64,000 bases of DNA from assembly GCA_027922465.2 (NCBI GenBank), contig BQMF02000265.1:496001-560000 (forward strand), read 5' to 3'. Positions 21,118 through 47,892 of the stretch are shown piece by piece. The notes beneath the pieces are model-generated. The model worked only from the letters and a program-made list of their open reading frames with translations, had not been told where the DNA came from and did no database searches. Within the stretch, counting starts at the first letter, position 1. Every line of letters starts with the position of its first letter. This DNA comes from Turritopsis dohrnii (Eukaryota; Cnidaria; Hydrozoa; Anthoathecata; Oceaniidae). Both the position numbers and the translations under genes were made by a program.

Positions 21118-21583
21118 ATACAATAATTTTAAAAGATTTTCTTGAAAAATCCTTGCGAATGAAATTCATAATATTGCCATTTCTTGCAAATCAACAATAA
21201 ATGTATTCTTTGAATAATATTTTAACAATAGATTGTTTGCTTTCATGTTTAAAATTACAAAATGTAACTATATTTCTACCCCCCTGATTCTTTCCCGCTT
21301 TAGTAGATATAAAGTGACAGTTCTACATCACCTCTGACGTCACAACCTCACGAACCAATCAGCGTTGAGAATAAGAACCAATTAAATCTAATTATTGACT
21401 TTAGGACACCCGTGGTGGAGTAAAGTATTTAAAATACCCGTGGTTTCTCCTCCTACTACTACTACTACTACTCCTCCAAGTTATGAACGTTTTCGTGCAG
21501 CGTTTACATGACATCGTTGCCGAATTCGCAAATTTGGTCAAATTAGGACTTCCAGTTGACCAATTTTCATGAAAATTTGCACA

Positions 21584-22960
21584 GATCACAATTGAAAGGT
21601 GCTGATTTCAAATTTGACAATGATTTTGTCAGGTTTGACTAAAATTGGCCAATTTAGGCCAAATTTGGACCAAATTTCGTAAATTCTTCAATTTTCACAA
21701 AAATTTGCACGGATCACATTTGAAAGGTTCTGATTTCGAATTTGACAATGATATTGCCAGGTTTGACTAAAATTGGCCAATTTAGGCCAAATTTGGACCA
21801 AATTTCGTAAATTCTTCAATTTTCACAAAAATTTGCACGGATCACATTTGAAAGGTTCTGATTTCGAATTTGAAAATGATATTGCCAGGTTTGACTAAAA
21901 TTGGCCAATTTAGGCCAAATTTGGACCAAATTTCGAAAGTTCTTCAATTTTCATGAAATTTTGCACGGATCACAACTGAAAGGTGCTGATTTCGAATTTG
22001 ACAATGATATTGCCAGGTTTGACTAAAATTGGCCAATTTAGGCCAAATTTGGACCAAATTTCGAAAGTTCTTCAATTTTCATGAAATTTTGCACGGATCA
22101 CAATTGAAAGGTGCTGATTTCGAATTTGACAATGATATTGCCAGGTTTGACTAAAATTGGCCAATTTAGGCCAAATTTGGACCAAATTTCGAAAGTTCTT
22201 CAATTTTCAGGAAATTTTGCAAAGATCACAATTGAAAGGTGCTGATTTCAAATTTGACAATTATTTTGCCAGGTTTTACTAAAATTGGGCAATTTAGGTC
22301 AAATTTGAACCAAATTTAGAAAGTTCTTCAATTTTCATGAAATTTTGCACGGATCACAACTGAAAGGTTCTGATTTCGAATTTGACAATGATATTGCCAG
22401 GTTTGACTAAAATTGGCCAATTTAGGCCAAATTTGGACCAAATTTCGTAAATTCTTCAATTTTCACAATAATTTGCACGGATCACATTTGAAAGGTGCTG
22501 ATTTCGAATTTGACAATGATATTGCCAGGTTTGACTAAAATTGGCCAATTTAGGCCAAATTTGGACCAAATTTCGAAAGTTCTTCAATTTTCAGGAAATT
22601 TTGCAAAGATCACAATTGAAAGGTGCTGATTTCAAATTTGACAATTATTTTGCCAGGTTTTACTAAAATTGGGCAATTTAGGTCAAATTTGAACCAAATT
22701 TAGAAAGTTCTTCAAATTTCAAAAAATTTTGCGCCGATCACTTTTGAAAGGTGCTGATTACGAATTTGTCAGTCATTTTGTCAGATTTGAACAGAAATGG
22801 GTAATTCGGGCCAAATTTGGATCAAACTTAGAAATTTCCGCAATATTCATAAAAATTTCTACAACTCACAATTAGAAGTTGCTGATTTTGAATTTGCCAG
22901 TCATTTTATTAGATTTGAACATAATTTGGCAATTCGGCAATGTTGTATTTTGAGACTAAA
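21584..22960 (+). repeat. Left 128-bp tandem array
   Basis: The landmark GATCAC recurs at 21584, 21712, 21840, 21968, 22096, 22224, 22352, 22480, 22608 and 22736, with a degenerate copy at 22864: exactly 128 bp each time. Units contain GGCCAATTTAGGCCAAATTT. The perfect spacing over 11 units with only substitutions implies turnover by unequal exchange or conversion. Confidence 0.9.
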
Positions 22961-23399: not shown

Positions 23400-25500
23400 C
23401 AAATTACGGTCAAATCTAACAAAATGACTGGCAAATTCAAAATCAACATCTTGAATATTCAAGAACTTTCGAAATTTGGTACAAATTTGGCCCAAATTGT
23501 CCATTTTTGGTCAAATCAGACAAAATGATTGCCAAATTTGAAATCAGCACCATTCCAATGTGACCCGTGCAAAGTTTTATAAAACTTGAAGAATTTTTGA
23601 AATTTGGTCCAAATTTGGCCTAAATTGCCCAATTTTAGTCAAACCTGGCAAAATAATTGTCAAATTCGAAATCGGCACCTTTCAATTGTGAGCCGTGTAA
23701 AATTTCATGAAAATTGAAGAATTATCGAAATTTGGTCCAAATTTGGCCTAAATTGCCCAATTTTAGTCAAACCTGGAAAAACCATTGTCAAATTCGAAAT
23801 CGGCACCTTTCAATTGTGACCCGTGCAAAATTTCATGAATTTATCGAAATTTGGTCCAAATTTGGCCTAAATTAACCAATTTTAGTCAAACCTGGCAAAA
23901 TCATTGTCAAATTTGAAATTGGCACCTTTCAATTGTGAGCCGTGCAAAATTTCATGAAAATTGAAGCATTATCGAAATTTGGTCCAAATTTGGCCTAAAT
24001 TGCCCAATTTTAGTCAAACCTGGCAAAACCATTGTCAAATTCGAAATCGGCACCTTTCAATTGTGACCCGTGCAAAATTTCATGAAAATTGAAGAATTAT
24101 CGAAATTTGGTCCAAATTTGGCCTAAATTGACCAATTTTAGTCAAACCTGGCAAAATCATTGTCAAATTCGAAATCAGCACCTCTCAATTGTGAGCCGTG
24201 TAAAATTTCATGAAAATTGAAGAATTATCGAAATTTGGTCCAAATTTGGCCTAAATTGCCCAATTTTAGTCAAACCTGGAAAAACCATTGTCAAATTCGA
24301 AATCGGCACTTTTCAATTGTGATCCGTGCAGAATTTCTTGAAAATTGAAGAATTATCGAAATTTGGTCCAAATTTGGCCTAAATTGCCCAATTTTAGTCA
24401 AACCTGGCAAAACCATTGCCAAATTCGAAATCGGCACCTTTCAATTGTGACCCGTGCAAAATTTCATGAAGATTGAAGAATTATCGAAATTTGGTCCAAA
24501 TTTGGCCTAAATTGACCAATTTTAGTCAAACCTGGCAAAATCATTGTCAAATTCGAAATCGGCATCTTTCAATTGTGAGCCCTGCAAAATTTCATGAAAA
24601 TTGAAGCATTATCGAAATTTGGTCCAAATTTGGCCTAAATTGCCCAATTTTAGTCAAACCTGGAAAAACCATTGTCAAATTCGAAATCGGCACCTTTCAA
24701 TTGTGACCCGTGCAGAATTTCTTGAAAATTGAAGAATTATCGAAATTTGGTCCAAATTTGGCCTAAATTGCCCAATTTTAGTCAAACCTGGAAAAACCAT
24801 TGTCAAATTCGAAATCGGCACCTTTCAATTGTGACCCGTGCAGAATTTCTTGAAAATTGAAGAATTATCGAAATTTGGTCCAAATTTGGCCTAAATTGCC
24901 CAATTTTAGTCAAACCTGGCAAAACCATTGTCAAATTCGAAATCAACACCTTTCAATTGTGAGCCGTGCAAAATTTCGTGAAAATTGAAGCATTATCGAA
25001 ATTTGGTCCAAATTTGGCCTAAATTGCCCAATTTTAGTCAAACCTGGCAAAACCATTGTCAAATTCGAAATCGGCACCTTTCAATTGTGACCCGTGCAGA
25101 ATTTCTTGAAAATTGAAGCATTATCGAAATTTGGTCCAAATTTGGCCTAAATTGCCCAATTTTAGTCAAACCTGGCAAAACCATTGTCAAATTCGAAATC
25201 GGCACCTTTCAATTGTGACCCGTGCAGAATTTCTTGAAAATTGAAGAATTATCGAAATTTGGTCCAAATTTGGCCTAAATTGCCCAATTTTAGTCAAACC
25301 TGGCAAAACCATTGTCAAATTCGAAATCAACACCTTTCAATTGTGAGCCGTGCAAAATTTCGTGAAAATTGAAGAATTATCGAAATTTGGTCCAAATTTG
25401 GCCTAAATTGCCCAATTTTAGTCAAACCTGACAAAATTATTGTCAAATTTGAAATCAGCACCTTTCAATTGTGATCTGTGGAAAATTTCATGAAAATTGT
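23400..25500 (-). repeat. Right 128-bp tandem array (inverted)
   Basis: About 17 units in reverse orientation to the left array. Landmark TGACCC/TGAGCC occurs at 23561, 23689 and 23817 (128-bp steps); one unit at 23817-23936 has a 9-bp deletion. Units share CCAATTTTAGTCAAACCTGG. Several higher-order repeats suggest recent amplification on this side, explaining why it is longer than the left array. Confidence 0.9.
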
Positions 25501-26960: not shown

Positions 26961-27322
26961 AGAGATAGTATAATGGGGATTCCAGCGCAAAAACGCGCAC
27001 GCGCACACGCACACACACGCGCACACACGTTGCGCTACAATCCGCCTATATCTATCAGTCAGCTATATCTATCAGTCAGCTATATCTATCAGTCAGCAGC
27101 ACCTATATCTATCAGCAGTCACACACACGAAACGACGTCATCAGATTTTGGCGCAACCGATGACCCCATCAATCAAACCCCTTCTGCGCATGCGTCGAAA
27201 ACTGTTGACATCAGCACTATCGTCGAAAACCGTCGAAAAGTGTTGCCCTTTCGTCGAAAACCAACGAAAACTGTTGACATCAGCACTATCGTCGAAAACC
27301 GTCGAAAACTGCTGACTACTGC
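26961..27322 (+). repeat. Left inverted terminal repeat of the Polinton
   Basis: It contains a CG/CA alternating run (26994-27028), three exact 17-bp tandem units CTATATCTATCAGTCAG (27046-27096) with a partial fourth, and two copies of TGTTGACATCAGCACTATCG (27203 and 27272). These last correspond to the CRE-type repeats of the right end, but here TGACGTCA has become TGACATCA. Confidence 0.75.
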
Positions 27323-27337
27323 TAACATACATATTGA

Positions 27338-27422
27338 ATGAGTCAGGGAATTCCCTGACTCATGCGTCAGTTCTGTCCACTCGTAAAAAATTTCCAAGTT
27401 GAAAAAGTGTATATAATAAAGG
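27338..27422 (+). promoter_or_regulatory. AP-1/NF-kB/AP-1 palindrome and TATA-like box before polymerase
   Basis: TGAGTCA (27339-27345), GGGAATTCCC (27346-27355) and TGACTCA (27356-27362) abut without a spacer and form a perfect 26-bp palindrome with the flanking A and T. The palindrome ends 60 bp before the ATG. TATATAATAAA at 27410-27420 lies just before the start codon. The same layout, at the same distance, precedes both ankyrin-type genes. Binding by host factors is inferred from the consensus match. Confidence 0.75.
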
Positions 27423-30400
27423 ATGTTGAATAACAAAACAGTTCGAGAATTGAGAACCCAAGCAAAAGAGCGTGGCTTTAAAGGGTACTATAAGCTTAGG
27501 AAGGCTGACCTCATCAATTTATTAGATGCTCCAGTAAGACCACCTAGGAGAGCTGGAGTAAGGAAACCTCTTAGACAAGTCACTATACTCCCAAAGCCTG
27601 AATACATGGATATTTTTGGGCTTGAAGAGATGATGAAGAACCGATCAGTTGTAAAATCTAAACTCAACGAATGGTATGACTGGCTTGTGAGTTATGTACC
27701 AAAGTCAATTAAAGAGCCTATACAGAACGCTTTCTCTAAAGCAAAAAGTGATATTTTAAAGTTGTACAACAATACAAAGGAAAAGCTTGGGTTAAAAAGT
27801 ATGGTTGAAGAACAGGCGATGGAAGACACCAACAACACAAGTATGAGTGATGATTTTATACCTATGAAGCATAAGCATGCACTACATAAAACTTTCCGAA
27901 GCTTTCGTATAGCTGGTATAGCAAAAGCTGATGTTGATGGATACTTCAAACTAGTGAGAGCAAATGTGGAGAAGTTAATGGAAGAGCAGGTTGAGGACAT
28001 GGGGTCTGCTAAAGTACAACTCTCTCTATGGATCATGTGGAAGAAGCGAGAGAAGCTTTTAATTCAACTTGAAGATGGAGATAAATATGGATATATAAGG
28101 ATAGACAAAGTCTTTAACAGCTTGATGATGAGAGTGTTCCAAGGTAGTGACATGAAAGAGATATTGGATGAGATGTTTGCATATATCAAAACCCAAGTAG
28201 AGCATCCTGCATTACCACAAAGCGGCTTCACCATCGATCACATCATGCACCTGGACGTAGACTTTCACAAGCTGCAGCTGATGAGAGGATCTTCATACAT
28301 CGAACTACCATCCTGGATAGCGTCGAAAAAGGCAATCATCAACCCTAAAAACGATGATGAAGAATGCTTCAAGTGGGCTGTAATAGCAGCACTACATCAT
28401 GAAGAGATTGGAAAAGATCCACAACGCATTTCAAAGCTACAGAAGTATGAGAATGAGTACAACTGGGATGGTTTGGAATTTCCTGTAGCAATAGACAAGA
28501 TAGGAAAGTTCGAGAAGAATAATCCTAACATTGGGGTGAACGTACTATATATCGAAGAAAAGTCTACAAAGAGGAGGATCAACACCACACGAGAATCTAA
28601 TCGTAACATAAGCGCAAAGAAGCAAGTCAATCTGTTGATGGTATGTGATGGAGAGAAAAATCACTATACAGCCATCAAGAATCTGTCAAGGTTGTTGGGT
28701 CAAGAAAACACAAATCACAAATGTGCACAGCACTTTTGCATCAACTGTCTAAATGGTTTTCACAATGTAGAGTCACGAGACAAGCACTATATCTACTGCT
28801 CTGGCAATGAACAAGTTAGAGTGGAGATGCCTGGAGAGAAGGAAAAATGGCTGTATTATAACAATGGAGAGATGCAGTTCAGAGTACCTTTTGCTATCTA
28901 TGCAGATTTCGAGAGTCTTTTAGTACCTATGAAGGAAGATGGGAGAGAGAAGAACACAAAAACACTATCGAAGCATATACCTTCAGGATGGTGTACGTAC
29001 AGCAAGTTTGCGTATGGAGATGTGCAAGATCCTCTAAAAGTATACAGAGGTGAAGATTGTGTAAAGAAGTTTGTGGATCATCTGGAAGATGAAGTTAAGC
29101 GGTTGTATGCGACATTTCCAGAGCAGTCGATGATAGAACTGACGGATGTTCAGAAGCGTGATCATTGGGATGCAGAAACTTGTCACATATGTATGCTGCC
29201 ATTTTCAGATCCTCAAAATCGCAAAGTCAGAGATCACTGTCACTATACAGGTTTATATCGAAGTGCCGCACATAACAATTGCAACCTAAGATACAAGATC
29301 CCACATCATATCCCTATCATCTTTCACAACTTAAGTGGCTATGATGCACACCTCTTCATTAGAGAACTGGGGGAAAAGTACAACATGGAAGATATAGGAT
29401 GCATCGCGGAAAATAGGGAAAAGTATATATCCTTCCATGTCAAAATAGCAATACCACTTGCTGGTGTTTTCAACTCTGATGGTGCACAAGTGTACAAGAA
29501 GATCGAGCTGAGATTCATTGACAGCTGTAGATTCATGGCATCAAGTTTGGATAAATTGTCCTCTAATCTTAGCGATGAGCAGTGCAGAAATCTTCGATGG
29601 TTTTACAAGGAAGATAGCATCTTTCAGTTGATGCGCCGCAAAGGTGTATATCCATATGAGTATATGGATAGTTGGGAAAAGCTTGCTGAGAGAGAGCTAC
29701 CTCCAAAAGAAGCCTTTTACAGCAAGCTGAACATGTGTGGTATAAGTGACACAGACTACGAACATGCACAACAGGTGTGGAGAAGAGTGTCTCCAAAAGG
29801 AGACGTGACAACACTTGGAGATTACCACGATGTGTACTTGGCAACGGACGTTCTACTGTTAGCAGATGTGTTTGAAACGTTTCGGGATACATGCTTGCAT
29901 CACTACCAATTGGATCCACTCCATTTCTACACAGCACCCGGTTTGGCGTGGAAAGCAGCCTTGAAGTATACCCGAATAGAGTTAGAACTGCTCACAGACA
30001 TAGACATGCTGTTAATGTTCGAGAGAGGTATACGAGGAGGTATAACACAAGCTGTACATCGCTATGTAAAAGCAAACAATAAGTATATGGATGATCAATA
30101 TGATCCGAAGGAGGAATCCTCATATGTAATGTACCTTGACGCAAACAACCTTTACGGTTGGGCTATGGCATCAGACTTGCCAACACATGGATTTAGATGG
30201 GTAAAAAATGTTGAGAAGTTCACACCTGAAGGTATTGCGAAGTTAGTTAAGAAGAATGAGTATGGCTATCTGCTGGAGGTGGATATCGAGTATCCAAAGA
30301 GGCTACATGATGCTCATAATAGTTTACCATTTCTACCTGAGAGAATGACGCTTGCAAAGGTGGAAAAACTCGTACCAAATCTCCACAACAAGCATGAGTA

Positions 30401-31337
30401 TGTCATAGATATAAGAGCGCTACATCAAGCGTTGACTCATGGCTTAGTTCTGAAGAAAGTCCACCGAGTCATCAGGTATCATCAGGTTGCCTGGCTCAAG
30501 CCTTACATAAACTTAAACACAAGACTGAGAAAAGAATCAAAGAACGACTTCGAAAAAGACTTTTTCAAGCTTATGAACAATAGCGTGTTTGGTAAGACGA
30601 TGGAGAATATACGGAACCATCGCAATATGAAGTTAGTTACGAGCGAAAAGAAGTATAAGGGGTACGTCATGAAACCTAACTTTAAAAGTGGAGTTCGCTT
30701 TAGCGCAAACTTGATGGGTGTGGAGATGGGTAAGACAAGTATCAAGATGATGAAGCCTGTATACATAGGTCAGGCTATACTTGATATGAGTAAGATGTTA
30801 ATGTATGAATTCCACTATGACTACATGCAGCCGAAATATGGCAGTAAGCTGCAACTCTGCTATATGGACACTGACAGCTTCGTGTACCACATCAAGACGG
30901 AAGATTTCTATCGAGATATAGCTGAAGATGTAGAAAAGAGATTTGACACGAGTAATTATTCAGAGAAAGACAGATTATACACATTAAAGAATGAGAAGGT
31001 TATTGGTCTGATGAAGGACGAACTTGGTGGTAAGATCATGACGGAGTTTGTGGCTTTACGAGCTAAACTCTATGCATACAAGACGCTAGAGAAGGAAGAC
31101 AAGCGATGCAAAGGCATGAAAAAGTGTGTGGTTAAAAAATCCATTACATTCGAAGATTATAAGAAGTGTCTAGAAGATGGAGGAAATCTATATAGAGAAA
31201 TGGTAGTGCTTCAAAATAAGAAACATCAAATGTATACACAAAAAGTGAACAAGATTGCTTTGAACAGAGACGATGATAAACGCATCATACAGACAGATTT
31301 GATCACAACGCGTGCTCGAGGATTCATAAATTCATAA
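27423..31337 (+). CDS. Protein-primed DNA polymerase B (Polinton pPolB)
   Basis: 1304 residues, intact. An N-terminal SAP/HeH-like helix pair (VRELRTQAKERGFKGYYKL, residues about 7-25) may bind DNA. A Cys/His cluster (CAQHFCINCLNGF) follows near residue 435. The exonuclease motifs are FAIYADFESLL (near 490), NLSGYDAHLF (near 638) and YLATDVLLLAD (near 805). An HNH-like insert with CHICMLPF and RDHCHYTG begins near residue 587, as in other Polinton polymerases. Palm motifs are YLDANNLYGWAM (near 904), KLMNNSVFGKTMENI (near 1049) and CYMDTDSF (near 1147). It would copy the linear element from its ends with a protein primer. Its promoter carries the AP-1/NF-kB palindrome. Confidence 0.95.
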   Translation: MLNNKTVRELRTQAKERGFKGYYKLRKADLINLLDAPVRPPRRAGVRKPLRQVTILPKPEYMDIFGLEEMMKNRSVVKSKLNEWYDWLVSYVPKSIKEPIQNAFSKAKSDILKLYNNTKEKLGLKSMVEEQAMEDTNNTSMSDDFIPMKHKHALHKTFRSFRIAGIAKADVDGYFKLVRANVEKLMEEQVEDMGSAKVQLSLWIMWKKREKLLIQLEDGDKYGYIRIDKVFNSLMMRVFQGSDMKEILDEMFAYIKTQVEHPALPQSGFTIDHIMHLDVDFHKLQLMRGSSYIELPSWIASKKAIINPKNDDEECFKWAVIAALHHEEIGKDPQRISKLQKYENEYNWDGLEFPVAIDKIGKFEKNNPNIGVNVLYIEEKSTKRRINTTRESNRNISAKKQVNLLMVCDGEKNHYTAIKNLSRLLGQENTNHKCAQHFCINCLNGFHNVESRDKHYIYCSGNEQVRVEMPGEKEKWLYYNNGEMQFRVPFAIYADFESLLVPMKEDGREKNTKTLSKHIPSGWCTYSKFAYGDVQDPLKVYRGEDCVKKFVDHLEDEVKRLYATFPEQSMIELTDVQKRDHWDAETCHICMLPFSDPQNRKVRDHCHYTGLYRSAAHNNCNLRYKIPHHIPIIFHNLSGYDAHLFIRELGEKYNMEDIGCIAENREKYISFHVKIAIPLAGVFNSDGAQVYKKIELRFIDSCRFMASSLDKLSSNLSDEQCRNLRWFYKEDSIFQLMRRKGVYPYEYMDSWEKLAERELPPKEAFYSKLNMCGISDTDYEHAQQVWRRVSPKGDVTTLGDYHDVYLATDVLLLADVFETFRDTCLHHYQLDPLHFYTAPGLAWKAALKYTRIELELLTDIDMLLMFERGIRGGITQAVHRYVKANNKYMDDQYDPKEESSYVMYLDANNLYGWAMASDLPTHGFRWVKNVEKFTPEGIAKLVKKNEYGYLLEVDIEYPKRLHDAHNSLPFLPERMTLAKVEKLVPNLHNKHEYVIDIRALHQALTHGLVLKKVHRVIRYHQVAWLKPYINLNTRLRKESKNDFEKDFFKLMNNSVFGKTMENIRNHRNMKLVTSEKKYKGYVMKPNFKSGVRFSANLMGVEMGKTSIKMMKPVYIGQAILDMSKMLMYEFHYDYMQPKYGSKLQLCYMDTDSFVYHIKTEDFYRDIAEDVEKRFDTSNYSEKDRLYTLKNEKVIGLMKDELGGKIMTEFVALRAKLYAYKTLEKEDKRCKGMKKCVVKKSITFEDYKKCLEDGGNLYREMVVLQNKKHQMYTQKVNKIALNRDDDKRIIQTDLITTRARGFINS

Positions 31338-31828: not shown

Positions 31829-32387
31829 ACAAAAACCTAAGGGTTCTCTAAAATAGAGTTTTCTAAAATTATCGAATTTTTCCGAGAGACACCACAAGCA
31901 GACATTGAAGTGTAAATGAATGGTATAAAACTTAAGAGCGGAATAATTTGAAATTGTGGTGAACAGGCGACAGAGTCTGCCGGAAAGGGAAGGTCTAGTG
32001 GAGCGGCTAGATTGGAACTGGATGGTGCCGTCCGCTCCCGGTATTCACCACAAAATGTGCCAAAAGTTGTCGGGAAAAACTGTGACTAAATGTAATATAC
32101 TCGAGCAGAACATGAACGGCCATTACGTGCGTAGTAGTCGGAGCTCGTAAGTAGTCACACACAAATAGTCTAAGATCTAGGGGTAGAGCTCAGAGCTGGT
32201 GGATTCGAGAAGCCAGGGTGGAGTGCCGGTTAGATCGAAGACAATGAATTAAAAACCCTCTAGGGTATCGCAACAACAACATCATCATCAACAACAAAAA
32301 CCCTAGGGGGTTCTCCTAAGGGAGTTTTGTTTTCAATAATAATATAATATTCGTTTCATGTAGCTCATCACCGCCACATGAAAGAAA

Positions 32388-33934: not shown

Positions 33935-34919
33935 ATGACTGAAACGTTGCGTGACATCTACTACAAACCAGAGAATCTGTGGAAAGGGAAGAAAGCCATT
34001 AAAGAGCTTCAGAAGGCTGCCTGGAGTTACTAAGGAAACAAGTAGTAGAAGTGGCTAGACTCATCAAGCTTTATATCAGATACATCTACCAAGGCCTGAG
34101 CACATCGACTATCCTCACTTTTACGTGACCAAGGTGAACAAGATCCACCAGGCCGATCTTTTGTATCTTCCTCATGACAAAGTCTATCAGAATACGTACA
34201 AGTACGCTTTGAATGTGATCGATATTGCTTCAGGGTATAAAGCGAGTAGACCTCTGAGAACGAAGAAGGCGAGCGACGTTGCAGAGATGTTTGCTGACAT
34301 TTACAAAAAGGGTCCACTAAAGTGGCCTGAGAAGCTCTATGTAGATAACGGATCAGAGTTTAAGTCGGAAACAGCCAAGGTCTTCCAGAAGCACGATGTC
34401 GAGGTGGTGAGAGCTACAACAAAGCATAACCACAGAAAGCAAGCCTTTGTGGAAAACTTTAACAAACTCCTCGCGGAGAAACTTTTCCCTATACAAGATG
34501 CGCAGGAGTTGGAAGATCCAGAGAAAAACAGTACCACTTGGGTAAAACACTACCAGAAAAGTGTGAGTCAACTGAACAACAATGTTCTTGCCAGAACCGG
34601 GATGAAACCCTCAAAGGCGATTAAACTGGAGGAAGTTCTGTTAAAAGTTGAGTTTTACCCGAAGGAAGAAACTTTACCTGAAGCGGGATTATACCGCTAT
34701 TTGCTAGCGCCGGGTGAGGAACATGACGGCATAAAACGACGCGCAACAGACAACAACTGGAGTCGGGAAACGTATCGGGTCGATAAGATATTGCAATACC
34801 AAGGTCAGCGTGTTTTGTACTACCTAGAAGATGGCCCGAAGAGATCTTTTGTATGTGAAGAACTTATGCTTATTCCTGAGGCTACGGAAGTACCTCCAGA
34901 ATACGTAAAAAAGTGGTAG
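33935..34919 (+). pseudogene. Retroviral-type integrase, N-terminal part broken
   Basis: The catalytic core and C-terminus are intact from about 34059 to 34919. The DDE triad is visible: Asp in HQADLLYLP, Asp in LYVDNGSEF and Glu in AFVENFNKLL, with exactly 35 residues between the last two. The C-terminal part (GLYRYLLAPGEEHD, SRETYRVDKI, ELMLIPEATEVPPEY) is typical of Polinton integrases. A separate short frame (33935-34033, MTETLRDIYYKPENLWKGKK) gives the N-terminus. Between 34020 and 34085 similarity jumps frame about three times and crosses stops, so the N-terminal domain cannot be made as one protein. The element is probably no longer able to integrate by itself. Confidence 0.8.
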
Positions 34920-38019: not shown

Positions 38020-38700
38020 TTATTTGAAGGCGACGAGCATATTGATAGCTTTTAAATCAACTTTCCTGCCTTGATCGTCGGTGACGTAAAAATTCAACGT
38101 TCGCGTTGAGAACCTCAATTTGCTGGGGAACATAGGACGTTCATAGTGATACGATATGATGTCGCCATACTCGTACTCAGGCTTCTGAAGTTCAAAATTG
38201 TGCAAGATGCCCGACCCTTTACCGTTCTCCACCAGCATCGTTGTGTTTTCAAATTCCTGACAGTATAAACGTATAGACTTGAACGGGAAAAAGTTTGAAA
38301 AAGACTTGTAGAGGCCTTCTATGAAAAATCTATGTTTCGGACTTTCTAGACCTAGTAAGTATAGAAGACCTTCCGTCATTATTACCTTGTACCCTTTGGA
38401 TACTGATAACTGAAGCTTACCATCACATATCTGATCTAGATATACGCTTTGAAGTGATCTTGCATTTATATTATCGCGAATATTCTTTGACGTATATAAC
38501 CCAGGTGCGAAGTGAATGTGGATTGGATTGGGGTCTGTTGCTACTTGATCTTTCGTGATGGTTATCGTTTGAGGCTTCTCGAGGTTGAACCACCCCACGT
38601 ATAACATTGCACTTTTTATCCCAATCTCTGTGCCTTCTTTTAACTCTATTGGTAACTTGGTTTCTCCAAGATGGGTGACATTTAGATATGTTTCATACAT
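38020..38700 (-). CDS. Minor capsid (penton-like) protein of Polinton
   Basis: 226 residues, intact. The C-terminal half, with VENGKGSGILHNFELQ, YGDIISYHYERPMF and LNFYVTDDQGRKVDL, matches the jelly-roll minor capsid proteins of Polintons in my memory. Such proteins form the pentameric vertices of the capsid. The start at 38700 is divergent from the next gene across a 14-bp promoter. The downstream membrane-protein gene follows after 4 nt and probably shares the transcript. Confidence 0.7.
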   Translation of the reverse strand: MYETYLNVTHLGETKLPIELKEGTEIGIKSAMLYVGWFNLEKPQTITITKDQVATDPNPIHIHFAPGLYTSKNIRDNINARSLQSVYLDQICDGKLQLSVSKGYKVIMTEGLLYLLGLESPKHRFFIEGLYKSFSNFFPFKSIRLYCQEFENTTMLVENGKGSGILHNFELQKPEYEYGDIISYHYERPMFPSKLRFSTRTLNFYVTDDQGRKVDLKAINMLVAFK

Positions 38701-38714
38701 TTATTATAAGAGAA
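38701..38714. promoter_or_regulatory. Bidirectional virion-gene promoter, copy 1
   Basis: The whole 14-bp spacer between two divergent ATGs is TTATTATAAGAGAA. The same 14-mer, inverted, sits between the second divergent pair (41025-41040). Both directions carry a TATAA-like core. Confidence 0.65.
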
Positions 38715-39797
38715 ATGAACTACGACAAGGTGCGGTATATACCAAAATTCGGGCAACCTAGTACACTCTTAGCTGCTAAGGAACTCTGGGAGCAAAGGAT
38801 CGTTGTGGATCAACAAGGGAACTTTTTCATCGCTAAGTTTCGCGATATTTTCTCATTTCCGTTTGTACCCATGGAAAATGACAGATGGCTCGATATCGAC
38901 ATGTACCCAGGACAGTTATCTTTTGCTACCTGGTTAGCTACGACTGGTCGCGGCATATCAACGCAACATCTACACCATAAGAACCCTATGATTGCGAGCA
39001 TCTACCGCTTTCACGTCTATTTTCAGATACGTCTGATCTTGAAGCAACTTGAAATTCCTCTACCAAGTGAACTAAGCTTCAACCCGCGAGATAACAAATA
39101 CAATTCAAGTGCGTTCAAGACGCTCTCTGCAGAGTTTGACATACCAGCTGACAAGTTCTTCTGGCGATACCCTGCTCGCATGCGGAGAATTGGCAAGAGT
39201 TGGGAATTCTACGTTCAAAATGATGTTGATGCTGGGTTAAGTAGAGCTGGTATACAACGCTTGTCGCAGAGTACGCGGATGTACGCACGAATGCTTTTAG
39301 AAAGTCAGGCGAGTGCACGTTCCGTTATAGCGGGTGACACTGGACGTGCCTTGGATGCTCAAAAGATCTTCATGACCGCAGTAGAGCAAGCGATCCGGAA
39401 AGACACCTCTTTAGCGGAAGAGATTGGTAAGTTCCAGAAAGCCTTAAGTTACGCTAGATCGGAACCTGATTATGGCGTTGCCCTCGGTACATACCTAATA
39501 CCCAGCGATTTAAAGCTTGGGAATCTCGACAACATCTCTGATTTTTCGACAAAGCTTACCGTTGCGACTCACATCGGTAAACTACCACCACCACCTAAAC
39601 AACACTCTTTGGGAGGATTTCAGGGTCGCAGAATGGCTTCCTCCGATCCTCCAACATCTTCCGTTAAGCGAGCTCAAACGTCTTCCGTTAAGCAAGCTCA
39701 AACGTCTTCCGCTGCTAAGCAGCATGAAGAAGAAAAGCAAGCTCTCATGTGGGTAGGTGTCGGCTTAATTGCGCTTCTTTTGTATTTCAAACCATAG
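38715..39797 (+). CDS. Conserved Polinton virion-type protein with C-terminal membrane anchor, 360 aa
   Basis: The start at 38715 (MNYDKVRYIPKFGQP) abuts the shared promoter; the upstream extension would overlap the divergent gene. A conserved globular N-terminal half contains DIDMYPGQLSFATWLATTGR and YRFHVYFQIRLILKQLEI. A low-complexity Ser/Gln linker with three QTSS(V/A) repeats follows, then a C-terminal hydrophobic anchor (LMWVGVGLIALLLYF). I recall the N-terminal block from uncharacterised cnidarian Polinton proteins and cannot name its function. The last 33 nt overlap the end of the convergent gene. Confidence 0.65.
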   Translation: MNYDKVRYIPKFGQPSTLLAAKELWEQRIVVDQQGNFFIAKFRDIFSFPFVPMENDRWLDIDMYPGQLSFATWLATTGRGISTQHLHHKNPMIASIYRFHVYFQIRLILKQLEIPLPSELSFNPRDNKYNSSAFKTLSAEFDIPADKFFWRYPARMRRIGKSWEFYVQNDVDAGLSRAGIQRLSQSTRMYARMLLESQASARSVIAGDTGRALDAQKIFMTAVEQAIRKDTSLAEEIGKFQKALSYARSEPDYGVALGTYLIPSDLKLGNLDNISDFSTKLTVATHIGKLPPPPKQHSLGGFQGRRMASSDPPTSSVKRAQTSSVKQAQTSSAAKQHEEEKQALMWVGVGLIALLLYFKP

Positions 39798-41024
39798 CCA
39801 GTTGCCTATCAGACCAACCACCAAAACTACGACTACCCATGCGTTGCTTGCTAGAGCTATGACACCTTTCTTCAGAAAGTTTAAGAGCCAGCTTACAACA
39901 CTTCCAATGATCCCCGGCAATGCAGCTCCAAGTTTGCTTGCAAGTTTTCCGAGAACGCGTCCAAGTGCTTCGAGCTGCTTCTTCACCCATTGCTGCACAC
40001 CAGCTCGTCCAGAAGCAGTAGGAGGACTTCCTGGAGGAGCACCACCACCACCTGTGAGAGAGGTTGCTATCGTTGATATTACCAGCGAAAACGCTGTTAA
40101 GATTGAAACGATTGTGATCCCTTGCTCTCGAAAGAGGATGCGAAGTTTCTCCCTTAGTGTTCTATCCTTGTCGAGGACTTTGAATACCGTCTCTTTGATG
40201 CGCGACCACTGGCTAGACAACTCCTTGCGGTTACCACTGAGCACCTCTAGTCGAGATGCACGCTCCGCTTTCAAATTGGAGAGTCGTCGCTTAATCTCTT
40301 CTTTTATTTCAGGTTTATCGGTTTCACCTACTTTACGTTCTTCTTTTGCTATTTGACTATCGATTTCGCCTAATTTTGCTAAGTTGTTCTCCAGCTCCCC
40401 ACGTATTCGTTTTAGTGCATCGTCTAAGCCTCTAAGTTCACGCAAACCAAGTCCAATCCCTTGCTCGCTTAAGATCTCATCCACCTCTAATGTTTTTTGG
40501 GTGCCTTGCTCGAGCATTTCACCCAATACCTCCCTCGCATTTGAGATGTTGTCGATGACTTGACTGTTATCTAAGCTATCCATTTCAATATTTTCTAGTT
40601 GTTTCACTATTTTACGGCTTACCTTACCCATCCGATCTGGTGCACCTGTCAGTCTTTTTATAGCATCCTCTCCACCTAGGATTCCTTTAATACTATTTGG
40701 AGCTAAAAATCCTCCCCTTTTTTTTGTTATTCGGTGCCATTCATCATTTTTATAAAATTCAACTTTTGCGACACCTGGTGTATTCGTTGAAGTTACTCGA
40801 AACCGATCCAAACCCAAATTGGGATCTCCTCCTTTTATACCAAGATGGTTGTATAAATCTTCTATTGTCTGTCTTTTAATTTCTATTCCCTGCTGAATTG
40901 ATGCGCTTGGTATTTCAGAAGAATCGCCTGTGTCAGATATAAGCGGTGTAGTGTCAGATGTAAACGATGTATCTTCTACATTTTCAAATTTACCGTAAGG
41001 TGTTTCAAATGAGTTAAAGGCCAT
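39765..41024 (-). CDS. Conserved Polinton coiled-coil/membrane protein, 419 aa
   Basis: The start at 41024 (MAFNSFETPYGKF) abuts the shared bidirectional promoter; the frame upstream would overlap the capsid gene's ATG. Layout: a disordered head, a small globular domain around residues 45-120, long coiled coil (residues about 130-290), LFREQGITIVSILTAFSLVI, a Gly/Pro hinge (GGGGAPPGSPP), an amphipathic segment (GKLASKLGAALPGIIGSVVS), and a final hydrophobic span. The order resembles a membrane-active virion protein, but no function is established. Being paired with the major capsid gene suggests late, structural expression. Confidence 0.65.
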   Translation of the reverse strand: MAFNSFETPYGKFENVEDTSFTSDTTPLISDTGDSSEIPSASIQQGIEIKRQTIEDLYNHLGIKGGDPNLGLDRFRVTSTNTPGVAKVEFYKNDEWHRITKKRGGFLAPNSIKGILGGEDAIKRLTGAPDRMGKVSRKIVKQLENIEMDSLDNSQVIDNISNAREVLGEMLEQGTQKTLEVDEILSEQGIGLGLRELRGLDDALKRIRGELENNLAKLGEIDSQIAKEERKVGETDKPEIKEEIKRRLSNLKAERASRLEVLSGNRKELSSQWSRIKETVFKVLDKDRTLREKLRILFREQGITIVSILTAFSLVISTIATSLTGGGGAPPGSPPTASGRAGVQQWVKKQLEALGRVLGKLASKLGAALPGIIGSVVSWLLNFLKKGVIALASNAWVVVVLVVGLIGNWLWFEIQKKRN

Positions 41025-41040
41025 TTCTCTTATAATAAAC
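41025..41040. promoter_or_regulatory. Bidirectional virion-gene promoter, copy 2
   Basis: TTCTCTTATAATAAAC separates the ATG of the minus-strand gene from that of the major capsid gene. It is copy 1 inverted, plus two bases. Confidence 0.65.
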
Positions 41041-42297
41041 ATGTATGGTATTGCAAACCCTCATAAGGAATATATGACTCGCTTTGCCTTCAACGCACCG
41101 CGTCAGCATGTCAAGATCTCGAATACACCAAGTACCATTGACCAGACTCTATATCTAGATGTGAGGCTGCCGAATCTAGGTGCTAATGATGTCATTCTAC
41201 CAGAATCGCTCAAGCTCACGTTTGATATCAAACTCAACTCCACCGATACAGGACGCTACATCGTCAACAACTTGGGAAAGGCTTTGATCGAACAGTTGAC
41301 TATCAGTTACGAAGGAAACATCATCCAAGACATTCAAAATGCTGATGTGATGGAAATTTACAAGGACAGATGGCTACCTGAGGAAATGCAAGTGGAACGT
41401 ATCCAACAGGGAATAGATCCGGAGGGTGATGTGAACAAGCTCAGAGTCACACCGGGTGCAACGAGTACTTCAACGAGTAAGTCCGCCCTGGCAGCTGTCT
41501 ATGGTAACCGTTTTGCCATTCCTCTATGGGAATTTTTTGAACTCGTCAAGCATCTCCCCTATGTACAGCTTCGCGATCGTTTAAGCTTCAAAATTAAATT
41601 CGCAGAGTATGGAAAGGTCATCAGAGATGCAGGATCAGGATCAGGTGCTTCGAAGAAAGATCCTGACGGCACCTACACTATCTCCAACATTGCTCTAGAA
41701 TTCGACAAGGTAGAAGACTCTGACTTCAAACTAAAAGTCTACAATGAACTTGCCAATAGGCGACTACCCTACACCCGTGTTTTACGGCATAGAATAATCC
41801 CTTTGGACAAGAAAGATACCGCCTGGAATATACAGGTAAACGTGCCCAGCGAGAGTTTAAAGGCTCTTGTTCTATTCTTTCTTGATCCAGACAAACGAAA
41901 AGCATACGCTATGGATAACACCCATTACTACAACCCGAAAATCAGCAAGGTAGACATTACCATCGAAGGAGAGCCTAATCAACTCTATACACAGGGCTTA
42001 CTTCCAGAAGAAATGTATGCCCCGGCACGGAAGTATTTCACTTCCAATGAACTGCTGCCGGCCATTAGTCCTTCTAAATTCTTTGATTCTAATTACTGTC
42101 TTTTTATCGACTTTCGAAGTGTTGCTGACAATACTCTACATGGTGCGGGGAGGCGCCTCAAAAACACTTCAGATGGTGTCACACTGCAGATCACCAAAAA
42201 AGCTGATGGTGCGGGAGCCATCCAATGTTACCTCTTTGTGCTACAAGATGGACAGGTTACCTTCATGAATGAGCGCTTCCACAGTGTCGGCTACTAA
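41041..42297 (+). CDS. Major capsid protein (double jelly-roll)
   Basis: 418 residues, intact. Typical Polinton major-capsid landmarks: RFAFNAPRQHVKISN near the N-terminus, GRYIVNNLGKALIEQLTISY, the IYKDRWLPEEMQ block, the AIPLWEFFELVKHLPYVQL block and YTISNIALEFDKV between the two jelly rolls, LPYTRVLRHRIIPL in the second. It would build the icosahedral shell as trimers. It is transcribed divergently from the coiled-coil gene and followed after 5 nt by the packaging ATPase. Confidence 0.9.
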   Translation: MYGIANPHKEYMTRFAFNAPRQHVKISNTPSTIDQTLYLDVRLPNLGANDVILPESLKLTFDIKLNSTDTGRYIVNNLGKALIEQLTISYEGNIIQDIQNADVMEIYKDRWLPEEMQVERIQQGIDPEGDVNKLRVTPGATSTSTSKSALAAVYGNRFAIPLWEFFELVKHLPYVQLRDRLSFKIKFAEYGKVIRDAGSGSGASKKDPDGTYTISNIALEFDKVEDSDFKLKVYNELANRRLPYTRVLRHRIIPLDKKDTAWNIQVNVPSESLKALVLFFLDPDKRKAYAMDNTHYYNPKISKVDITIEGEPNQLYTQGLLPEEMYAPARKYFTSNELLPAISPSKFFDSNYCLFIDFRSVADNTLHGAGRRLKNTSDGVTLQITKKADGAGAIQCYLFVLQDGQVTFMNERFHSVGY

Positions 42298-42302
42298 AAT
42301 AA

Positions 42303-42908
42303 ATGAACCTTATTAAAGATCCTTGTACCACCATTTTTTCAGGACCGACAGGCTGTGGCAAGACGGAACTGGCTCTACGCTTACTACAGAACCACTTCAA
42401 GCACCACTTTGACTACATCGTCATTCTCTGTCCTTCCCTCCGATGGAATACAACCTATAAAGACTGTACGATTCTCTGGGAAGATGATGATGTTTTTCTG
42501 ATCCAACCTACACCACAACAGGACTTATTATATTGGATTGAGATATTCACCAAGCAATTGGCAGGGCAGGAAACCTTATTCATCATCGATGATTCCATAG
42601 CTGATGAGAAACTCGATAAGAAGAGGACTCCACTTCTCAATCTAAGTACCACAGGACGTCATCAAAAACATAGTCTATGGCTTCTCACCCAAGTCTACAC
42701 AGCTCTTCCAAAAACTATCAGACGGCAAGCAAAGATGCTATTCGTTTGGTATCCTAAAGAGAAGAGTGATGTTAAGCTTATCGATGATGAAACCAATGTC
42801 ATCAAAAACGATTGGAGTGACATCTTGCAAGAATTGGATGCTTCAGAACACGCATATCTTTACATACGATGTAGGTTCCCAAGGAGTTATAAGGTTGTTC
42901 TTCAATAA
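42303..42908 (+). CDS. FtsK/HerA-like DNA-packaging ATPase
   Basis: 201 residues, intact. Walker A is GPTGCGKT at 14-21, Walker B is LFIIDD at 92-97, and STTGRHQKHSLWLLTQ follows, a usual A32-type sensor region. It would pump genome DNA into capsids. The ATG comes after TAAAATAA just behind the capsid stop, and the stop codon lies inside a perfect hairpin. Confidence 0.9.
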   Translation: MNLIKDPCTTIFSGPTGCGKTELALRLLQNHFKHHFDYIVILCPSLRWNTTYKDCTILWEDDDVFLIQPTPQQDLLYWIEIFTKQLAGQETLFIIDDSIADEKLDKKRTPLLNLSTTGRHQKHSLWLLTQVYTALPKTIRRQAKMLFVWYPKEKSDVKLIDDETNVIKNDWSDILQELDASEHAYLYIRCRFPRSYKVVLQ

Positions 42909-42958: not shown

Positions 42959-43336
42959 TCATGCTGCTGCAGCCATTGCCCCTTCAAACTCTGTCGCGCC
43001 CCACTCCTTACAGAGTTTAACTGTCTCGAAGTGCTCATTCTCAGCTGCTGCTAGTATTGCACCACTAAAATTAGTCGCACCCCACTCCTTACAGAGTTTA
43101 ACTATCTCGATGTGACCTTTGTAAGCTGCTGCAGCCATTGCCTGATTAAAATTGGTTGCACCATATTCCTTTAACAGCTTGACATTCTCGATGTGACCAT
43201 TGAAAGCTGCTGCTAGCATTGCCTGATTAAAATTCGTTGCACCATATTCCTTGCATAGCTTGGTATAATTATGGGACTGTCCATATCCTAACCATTTATA
43301 TAAAGAAGTAACAATGATATAGAAATAACTCAACAT
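42959..43336 (-). CDS. Ankyrin-type repeat protein, shortened copy, 125 aa
   Basis: It starts MLSYFYIIVTSLYKWLGYGQ and has four repeats built on (I/N)VKLCKEWGATNF plus AMAAAA, about 33 residues each. This repeat subtype is known to me from marseilleviruses and invertebrate iridoviruses. A TGA after the fourth repeat cuts it short compared with its 223-residue neighbour, and the C-terminal region is missing. The two genes have nearly the same head and the same promoter, so they are a tandem duplicate. Confidence 0.75.
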   Translation of the reverse strand: MLSYFYIIVTSLYKWLGYGQSHNYTKLCKEYGATNFNQAMLAAAFNGHIENVKLLKEYGATNFNQAMAAAAYKGHIEIVKLCKEWGATNFSGAILAAAENEHFETVKLCKEWGATEFEGAMAAAA

Positions 43337-43475
43337 CCTTTATTATATACACTTTTTCAACTTGGGAATTTTTTACGAGTGGACAGAACTGACGCATGAG
43401 TCAGGGAATTCCCTGACTCATTTGATGAATTTTTTATGAGTGGCCAGAACTGAGTTAGGGGATTTCCCTGACTCA
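43337..43475 (-). promoter_or_regulatory. AP-1/NF-kB/AP-1 promoter of the first ankyrin gene
   Basis: The TATA-like box TATATAATAAA is read on the minus strand at 43339-43349. The palindrome at 43396-43421 holds TGAGTCA (43397-43403), GGGAATTCCC (43404-43413) and TGACTCA (43414-43420). It begins 60 bp from the ATG, as for polymerase. A second, decayed copy at 43451-43475 has TGAGTTA, GGGGATTTCCC and TGACTCA. Confidence 0.75.
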
Positions 43476-43502: not shown

Positions 43503-43531
43503 TTCAATAAGTAGTTTGTATACTTATTGAA
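43503..43531. terminator. Perfect hairpin at the end of the second ankyrin gene
   Basis: TTCAATAAGTA and TACTTATTGAA form an 11-bp perfect stem around a 7-nt loop, overlapping the last codons of the gene. Almost identical to the hairpin at 42901-42926. Confidence 0.65.
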
Positions 43532-44195
43532 AATATCCAGTTAGAAATTTCTTATATTCCTCGTCAAAGTACCAATCCCACACTCTATCCGGATGCATGG
43601 CAACTTCTACCAACTCGTAATAGAGATCTTTCCCGAAGCGACGCTTGTGATGATAGCGAAAGAGCTCCTCGTGAATAGCGTCATAAACTAACCAACTTCG
43701 ACAGAGTGCTACAATTATAAAGTCCCCATTCTCAGCTGCAAACTCCATTGCCTCATCAAAATCTGTTGCACCCAACTCCTTGCAGAGTCGAACTATCTCT
43801 AGGTGACCCTCCTCAAGAGCATCTGCTAACCATATTGCTAGGTGAAAACCCGTCGCACCCCACTCCTTACAGAGTTTAACTATCTCGATGTCACCATTGA
43901 GAGCTGCTAAAGACATTGCTAGGTTAAAATTAGTTGCACCCCACTCCTTACAGAGTTTAACTATCTCAATAAAACCATTTACAGCTGCTAAAGACATTGC
44001 CTCATCAAAATCTGTCGCACCCTGTTCCTTGCACAATTTAACTAGCGCGATGTCACCCTTATACGCTGCTGAAGCCATTGCCCTGTTGAAATTCGTTGCA
44101 CCATATTCCTTTAACACTTTGGTATAATTATGTGACTGTCCATATCCTAGCCAATTATATAAAAAAGTAACAACGTTTCTGAAATAACTCAACAT
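43524..44195 (-). CDS. Ankyrin-type repeat protein, full-length copy, 223 aa
   Basis: Five repeats of the LCKEWGATNF type, with units such as EIVKLCKEWGATGFHLAIWL and EIVRLCKELGATDFDEAM, then a distinct C-terminal region (YHHKRRFGKDLYYELVEVA, HPDRVWDWYFDEEYKKFL). The same C-terminal order appears in proteins of large DNA viruses, in my memory. Ankyrin proteins of such viruses often act on host ubiquitin ligase or NF-kB pathways, which is interesting given the NF-kB site in the promoter; this link is inference. The head (MLSYFRNVVTFLYNWLGYGQ) is shared with the shortened copy. Confidence 0.8.
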   Translation of the reverse strand: MLSYFRNVVTFLYNWLGYGQSHNYTKVLKEYGATNFNRAMASAAYKGDIALVKLCKEQGATDFDEAMSLAAVNGFIEIVKLCKEWGATNFNLAMSLAALNGDIEIVKLCKEWGATGFHLAIWLADALEEGHLEIVRLCKELGATDFDEAMEFAAENGDFIIVALCRSWLVYDAIHEELFRYHHKRRFGKDLYYELVEVAMHPDRVWDWYFDEEYKKFLTGYFQ

Positions 44196-44311
44196 CCTTT
44201 ATTATATACAATTTTTCAACTTGGGAATTTTTTACGAGTGGACAGAACTGACGCATGAGTCAGGGAATTCCCTGACTCATTTGATGAATTTTTTATGAGT
44301 GGGGATTTCCC
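44196..44311 (-). promoter_or_regulatory. AP-1/NF-kB/AP-1 promoter of the second ankyrin gene
   Basis: TATATAATAAA on the minus strand at 44198-44208. Palindrome with TGAGTCA (44256-44262), GGGAATTCCC (44263-44272) and TGACTCA (44273-44279), again 60 bp from the ATG. A further NF-kB-like GGGGATTTCCC lies at 44301-44311. Confidence 0.75.
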
Positions 44312-44339
44312 TACTTTCGAGGAGGGGAATTCAACCGTG

Positions 44340-44611
44340 ACCGACGAGTCGATGAAACTGCTGACGTCAGCATTCATTTTGGGGTGGTTTTGATTGATGA
44401 CTTCGATGATGTGCTGACGTCAACACTTTTCGACGATAGTGCTGACGTCAACACTTTTCGACGATAATGCTGACGTCAACATTTTTCGACGCATGCGCAG
44501 AAGGGGTGGGCACTTTGTCATTTTTACCGATTTTTTTTTCGCGAGTCGCTGCGGAGGGAGTCGGAAGCACTTGCGCAGTGTGTGCGCTACAATCCGCAAT
44601 ATACTATCTCT
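44340..44611 (-). repeat. Right inverted terminal repeat with four CRE palindromes
   Basis: TGACGTCA occurs at 44362-44369, 44415-44422, 44443-44450 and 44471-44478; the last three are in exact 28-bp register within tandem units (TGCTGACGTCAACACTTTTC). GACGCATGCGCAG resembles an NRF1 site. The end is TATACTATCTCT. Confidence 0.75.
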
Positions 44612-47600: not shown

Positions 47601-47892
47601 AGGATTCCTCCATTGATTCCTTGGGAAACTGGATAAAAAGATGACGGAAAGCTGTCCTCATGGATTCGATCTTTGAGATGTTATCATCAATTTCCTCATT
47701 TGATGTCGATTTGTAAATGGTATTTTCGTCGAGGAAGTCATTGATGTCTTCAATTACGAGTGTCATCGAATTGGGTAACGCTTTATGGTCTGCCATTATT
47801 TTTTCATCTAGTTCATCAGATTCAGGTTTGATAGCTTTTATTCCGTGGAGATCAAATACTTTGTAATCGATCCGCTTACGAGGTCTTGACAT
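44612..47892 (-). CDS. BEL/Pao retrotransposon gag-pol, truncated in the reverse transcriptase
   Basis: About 1090 residues from ATG 47892. In order: a gag-like helical region (KLDIYTFQTEFEKLHQRTTP), Cys/His clusters near residues 455-555 (CAICNSSDH, CHQCLFPGAL, CRHESHD), an aspartic protease (LIFYDSGCDEF, near residue 624), a Cys-rich linker, and the start of reverse transcriptase (CRIVYDASQPTSSGYSLN, FHTDVTKMYNSIKL, TLIYGVRSSGNQSERGI). The frame runs cleanly to 44612 and is then replaced by the Polinton right end, so the rest of reverse transcriptase, RNase H, integrase and the 3' LTR are absent. Gag-pol is one frame with no stop. Confidence 0.9.

Follow-up and report, generated by a model that had tools for sequence, protein, structure and literature searches.

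A Predicted AP-1/kB/AP-1 Promoter Unit in Both Terminal Repeats of a Polinton from Turritopsis dohrnii

Introduction

A locus in the hydrozoan Turritopsis dohrnii raises in a concrete form the question of how integrated Polintons are switched on. The stretch of DNA analyzed here (64,000 nucleotides, called the window throughout) harbors an element in which an NF-kB (kB) site, flanked directly by two AP-1 sites, stands before the polymerase gene at one end and before two ankyrin-repeat genes at the other. Such an arrangement may place the element under the control of stress or immune signals of the host. Combinations of kB with AP-1/CRE sites occur in the HIV-1 LTR and in the HCMV immediate-early enhancer, where they respond to host signals and are linked to reactivation; these are nevertheless other classes of virus and are not known to have a tight AP-1/kB/AP-1 unit of the kind present at both ends of this Polinton. 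The questions are therefore what this unit consists of, what is conserved in it among related copies, and whether host regulation or mere copying accounts for it better.

The Element and Its Surroundings

The element is Polinton-like and measures about 17 kb. It is bounded by terminal inverted repeats (TIRs; 27177-27429 against 44189-44507, in inverted orientation) whose outer part contains indels, and the left TIR leads into a Polinton-type DNA polymerase (pol) ORF of 1304 aa (27423-31337, forward strand). Of 8000 proteins scored against the pol product, 7546 were homologues at E <= 0.001, and PF03175 was present on some of the 120 homologues listed; the window protein itself matched no PolB Pfam model at E <= 0.01. 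The closest named relatives among the matches listed belong to Hydractinia (59%), followed by Stylophora (47%) and Chrysoperla (46%). Toward the other end lie a major capsid protein ORF (41041-42297, forward strand), for which a double jelly-roll fold is predicted (mean pLDDT 75.5, pTM 0.80) that resembles the capsid proteins of SGIV, PBCV-1 and mavirus with TM about 0.5-0.6, and an A32-type packaging ATPase ORF (42303-42908, forward strand; Pox_A32, E = 8.5e-10, above the cut-off). An ORF at 34287-34919 gave a weak match to rve, the retroviral-type integrase, that remained below the cut-off (E = 0.11, with the ORF pieces unjoined), and no adenain-type protease was named in the part of the ORF set scanned with Pfam. 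The double jelly-roll capsid, the A32 ATPase, the relatives of the polymerase and the TIRs are shared with animal Polintons/Mavericks.

A 15-bp direct repeat TGCGCTACAATCCGC is found beyond the recognizable TIR on each side (27031-27045 and 44583-44597), and a retroelement-like ORF (44587-47892) ends at its right copy. The target-site duplication of Polintons is usually short, about 6 bp, and the 15-bp repeat exceeds that. A 128-bp tandem repeat forms two arrays next to the element (21561-22896 and 23452-25499), the ORFs outside it resemble mobile elements as judged by eye, and tRNA genes and Rfam families gave no match in the 64-kb window.

The Palindromic Unit in the Window

A 26-bp palindrome in which an AP-1, a kB and a second AP-1 site abut had been described at three positions, and the coordinates confirm all of them. 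The perfect palindrome ATGAGTCAGGGAATTCCCTGACTCAT lies before pol at 27338-27363 (AP-1 27339-27345, kB 27346-27355, AP-1 27356-27362), before ankyrin ORF 1 at 43396-43421 (AP-1 43397-43403, kB 43404-43413, AP-1 43414-43420) and in the right TIR at 44255-44280 (AP-1 44256-44262, kB 44263-44272, AP-1 44273-44279). The fixed spacing to the start codon, put at 60 bp in the initial annotation, also holds at all three places, with 59 bases as the exact figure: it separates the palindromes from the ATG of pol (27423, forward strand) and from those of the two ankyrin ORFs (43336 and 44195, reverse strand). These 59 bases are taken as the core promoters (27364-27422 on the forward strand, 43337-43395 and 44196-44254 on the reverse strand), and the window copies are near-identical well beyond the palindrome alone, from its outer edge as far as the first bases past the ATG. 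No longer perfect palindrome exists in the window, the next being an 18-bp AT repeat; the chance expectation for perfect palindromes of at least 26 bp is 0.002, and among simulated random palindromes 0.2% were centered on a kB site and 0.08% had an AP-1 site in an arm.

The palindrome is accompanied by further sites. On the right, the outer TIR (44281-44507) contains CREs TGACGTCA at 44362, 44415, 44443 and 44471 together with an extra kB site GGGGATTTCCC (44301-44311). A second GGGGATTTCCC site belongs to a diverged unit upstream of ankyrin ORF 1 (43451-43475), composed of TGAGTTA, the kB site (43458-43468) and the one AP-1 site that it has kept (43469-43475). On the left, the outer TIR (27177-27337) bears TTTCGACG and CRE-like repeats, and the two ends of the element diverge, with indels, outboard of the outer edge of the palindrome. 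The kB consensus GGGRNWYYCC matches the window six times against a simulated mean of 1.8, a total that is not extreme because six was also the maximum of 60 simulations. What stands out is position: 5/6 kB matches (0.02 expected), 7/11 AP-1 sites (0.12 expected, with 11 against 10.4 expected in the whole window) and 4/6 CREs (0.009 expected) fall inside 745 bp of TIR and promoter sequence, a region picked after the sites were known and whose sites are copies of one another. The single kB match elsewhere in the window is located at 32307-32316, 81 bp upstream of ORF 32388.

The three conserved copies had been held to argue for selection, a point that does not stand: two of them sit in the terminal inverted repeats and the third is internal, which makes the three palindromes dependent on one another. 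This origin in terminal repeats favors the most serious alternative to a regulatory role, according to which the block is identical only through copied or recombined terminal repeats in a young family and its likeness to transcription factor sites has no effect on expression. The clustering of kB matches at the corresponding promoters of other copies, described below, speaks against it.

Polymerase Copies Selected by Protein Alone

The comparison drew on the 36 best-scored of 1505 pol candidates, selected by protein; 35 are distinct from the copy in the window, and 10 of these 35 are ends of elements also sampled in the genome search described below. The scored copies are 98-100% identical and 35/36 have no internal stop, a pattern of sequences that marks a young, recently amplified Polinton family. 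The claim of a repeated element at promoter position was upheld, with the AP-1/kB/AP-1 order upstream of pol in 35/35 further copies at 53-85 bases before the ATG. TGAGTCA and TGACTCA are intact in every one of the 35, and the kB core between them occurs as GGGAAATCCCC (18 copies), GGGAATTCCC (15), GGGAAATTCCC (1) or GGAAATCCCC (1); these four cores vary in length and sequence and all fit GGGRNWYYCC. At least one perfect CRE TGACGTCA was present within 300 bp in 31/35 copies and none in the remaining four.

Perfect symmetry, advanced earlier as the conserved feature, fared less well, being retained in only 15/35 copies, and the commonest version, GGGAAATCCCC, is asymmetric. Related Polintons with conserved genes and without the palindrome, named at the outset as the observation that would speak against the idea, thus do occur in the literal sense (20/35), yet these copies keep both kinds of site. 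Judged from the aligned copies, what is conserved is the AP-1/kB/AP-1 architecture and not the symmetry; GGGAATTCCC and GGGAAATCCCC differ in a way that costs the symmetry and leaves the kB site in place, which argues for transcription factor sites and against symmetry.

Conservation of this kind has to be read with the age of the family in mind. The adjacent core of about 50 bp varies hardly more than the unit itself, with 10 haplotypes among the 35 copies and mostly single changes, and no more than a few mutational events lie behind the kB versions. With 98-100% identity among the sampled copies and a nearly invariant adjacent core, conservation may owe much to recency; both facts suit an explanation by copying. 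The four versions of the middle site, all within the kB consensus and all between intact AP-1 sites, do not.

Copies of the Unit Across the Genome

A search of the 436-Mb genome with the 24-base palindrome core, allowing up to 3 mismatches, returned 155 places, and the reversed control returned 0. Among the 50 of these 155 places that were listed, many are paired 9-18 kb apart. Forty-six of the 50 were fetched, and the first 20 fetched all share one core promoter, with an ATG that follows the 24-mer at 59-60 bases (20/20). Additionally, 14 opposite-end zones were fetched without foreknowledge of their content. A scan of the resulting 60 loci with the core matched 57, namely the 46 exact places and 11 of the 14 zones, with the match in L041 covering only part of the length; L050, L054 and L056, the other three zones, have no recognizable core promoter. 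All 11 promoter-bearing zones carry TGAGTCA-kB-TGACTCA, with GGGAAATCCCC as the kB core in nine and GGAAATCCCC in two. That the perfect palindrome is missing from these 11 is partly a matter of construction, exact places having already been listed; the retention of the kB and both AP-1 sites in zones fetched blind is not due to construction. In the same zones the promoters, with 1650 bp, had 16 kB matches; the interior, with 68,880 bp, had 6, and another 3 fell outside. The interior group is found at +4.4 to +5.0 kb, which roughly corresponds to the weak site at 32307 in the window, and a kB match near the equivalent of that place is found in 6/11 of these zones.

Outer flanks in the family are of two kinds, X, in which an extra kB site is usual, and Y, marked by TTTCGACG and CRE-like repeats. 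The two kinds combine across elements as X/X, Y/Y and X/Y; the element in the window is Y/X. Such mixing of end types is in line with copying and recombination of terminal repeats. In L009-L068, pol, an ankyrin-type leader and a third kind of gene (start ATGATCGATAGGTTT) directly follow one promoter. Several such genes share their first codons, so that promoter and leader look like a swappable cassette. The gene labels of the opposite-end zones rest on the first 15 nt, and some of the 'ank' labels are probably wrong: three zones with that label, L030, L034 and L049, carry the internal kB site that is otherwise seen on the pol side.

Relatives were also sought outside this genome. In viral contigs the pol protein search and the MCP alignment found none, the exact 24-mer was present in 0 contigs, and the pol alignment gave one 102-bp match. 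Genome contigs yielded three contigs of bacterial MAGs with pol identity of 28-45%. Neither a kB-consensus nor a CRE site was detected in these three and L001, but the sequence of L004 begins only within the gene and L002 represents another lineage.

Start Motifs and Gene Classes

A TATA-like box had been attributed to the three promoters as a shared feature. The sequence in question, TATATAATAAAGG, ends at the ATG and begins 13 nt before it, and it is no canonical TATA box because it is too near the ATG. Its core octamer TATAATAA occurs 8-11 nt before 6/14 inspected starts, that of the capsid gene included (six of its eight copies in the element are at starts), so that it is better described as a general start-codon motif; its presence before genes without kB sites rules out a TATA box private to the kB promoter.

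The kB and AP-1 sites are distributed more narrowly. Within 200 bp upstream, kB sites occur at 4/14 gene starts (pol, both ankyrin genes and the weak site at ORF 32388) and AP-1 sites at 3/14. A different motif, TTTCTCTTATAATAAA, is common to two divergent gene pairs: one copy precedes the capsid gene as a bidirectional candidate late promoter (41024-41039, forward strand), and the other lies between the divergent ORFs 38700 (reverse) and 38715 (forward), at 38700-38715 on the reverse strand. No kB or AP-1 site was found within 200 bp of either pair, the capsid gene start included, and TTTCTCTTATAATAAA pairs about 2.35 kb apart recur in 5/11 promoter-bearing zones of other copies. The arrangement of these motifs suggests an early class of genes (polymerase, ankyrin) as against a late class (capsid).

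The Ankyrin Genes

The two ankyrin-repeat ORFs, both on the reverse strand, encode 125 aa (ORF 1, 42959-43336) and 223 aa (ORF 2, 43524-44195), the internal protein being 68% identical to the terminal one. Their promoters differ at 1/107 upstream bases as against 21/123 of the first coding bases (Fisher test, p = 1.6e-5), a result that applies to the 107 homologous bases, since 130 bp that overrun the homologous block give p = 0.74. Promoters so much more alike than the adjoining coding sequence count against passive copying, and the sequences fit promoter constraint or local conversion, which these counts do not separate.

It is also conceivable that the element both senses and tunes NF-kB. 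One AP-1/kB/AP-1 promoter type would then drive both the polymerase and, from the opposite end, the ankyrin-repeat proteins, as an innate-immune reactivation switch whose ankyrin products act on host Rel in the manner of IkB/BCL3. Such a feedback is very unlikely. An identity of the ankyrin proteins with IkB is unsupported, as the 34 PDB matches were nearly all designed ankyrin proteins, and the named homologues, all of them ankyrin proteins, include no NF-kB-related name. The ankyrin homologue P0244 and the pol homologue P0005 are each listed with a contig of 35,283 bases, which may mean that this Polinton lineage regularly carries the ankyrin gene along.

Host Factors and Proposed Mechanism

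Taken from the sequence evidence, the reading preferred here, with a probability of roughly 0.6, is that AP-1/kB/AP-1 constitutes a terminal early promoter unit read by host bZIP and p50-like NF-kB proteins. The putative composite cis-regulatory unit precedes, by 53-85 bp, the start codons of the inward-facing terminal genes: the polymerase on one side and, on the opposite side, ankyrin or related leader genes. The putative promoter cassette belongs to each of the two terminal inverted repeats; CREs usually accompany it, and extra kB sites sometimes lie farther out. Its predicted readers are a p50-like NF-kB dimer and bZIP dimers of the AP-1/CREB type, all from the host, and the unit would mark an early gene class apart from the capsid class with its start motif TTTCTCTTATAATAAA. 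Immune or stress signals would thereby alter how strongly the integrated element is expressed, an increase being the most likely outcome.

The GGGAATTCCC 10-mer is the EMSA probe used for NF-kB of the sea anemone Aiptasia (PMC5700166) and for the NF-kB of Capsaspora and choanoflagellates (PMC8677719). The binding profiles of sponge and anemone NF-kB are described as close to that of human p50 (PMC5700166). Two jellyfish NF-kB proteins bound a consensus site yet failed to activate an NF-kB reporter in human cells; in yeast, one of the two activated a GAL4 reporter (PMC12221839).

How far these observations favor induction over copying or over silencing can be weighed as follows. An account by copied terminal repeats alone, for which the identity of the sampled copies and the invariance of the neighboring core provide grounds, is unlikely in view of the preserved sites and their concentration at the promoters. 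Repression has to be considered as well, since jellyfish NF-kB bound without activating the reporter in human cells. If the unit serves silencing or latency, the element would be held off by p50-like NF-kB homodimers or by bZIP repressors of the host, and signals would alter its state indirectly; palindromic kB sites suit p50-like homodimers, and the lack of reporter activation by the two jellyfish proteins in human cells agrees with this (PMC12221839). The activation in yeast by one of the two points the other way, and a mobile element would presumably gain little from a host silencer at both ends, which makes this explanation decidedly improbable. That the block is a symmetry element (a hairpin, part of an origin or the site of an element-encoded dimer, with a chance likeness to transcription factor sites) would accord with perfect 26-bp symmetry inside terminal repeats, and it is very improbable given that this symmetry persists in only 15/35 pol copies, and given the asymmetric commonest version, the internal copy beside the second ankyrin gene and the unequal distance from the palindrome to the outer TIR limit at the two ends.

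Relation to Known Systems and Significance

An early promoter under host control, as preferred here, has its closest parallel in WSSV, a DNA virus of invertebrates. According to a review (PMC6683665), the ie1 (wsv069) and related early promoters of white spot syndrome virus (WSSV) respond to host Relish/Dorsal, with positive feedback described, and the wsv069 and wsv249 promoters are listed for c-Jun/c-Fos. The likeness lies in host-signal sites in the early promoters of an invertebrate DNA virus; the difference is that WSSV is an unrelated large virus, whereas the Polinton carries an abutting predicted AP-1/kB/AP-1 unit in its terminal repeats. Mavirus-like endogenous virophages (EMALEs) are likewise integrated, possess TIRs and have promoter motifs taken to tie them to an outside trigger, giant viruses (PMC8547959); unlike theirs, the trigger proposed for this Polinton is not another virus, being host Rel and bZIP factors. 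The literature covered, consisting of titles and openings of abstracts and part of the text of PMC6505742, with most subscription journals outside coverage, contained no kB/AP-1 promoters of Polintons. Viral promoters driven by host signals are known, and a tight AP-1/kB/AP-1 unit at the ends of a Polinton is new as far as these searches show.

A putative promoter that brings canonical immune and stress sites to each end of a young family with many copies makes the switching-on of Polintons directly testable. If the proposed reading is true, a strategy of WSSV and of some vertebrate viruses would extend to Polintons; additionally, the element would scatter ready-made NF-kB/AP-1 enhancers through its host genome (155 places for the motif), with possible effects on neighboring genes.
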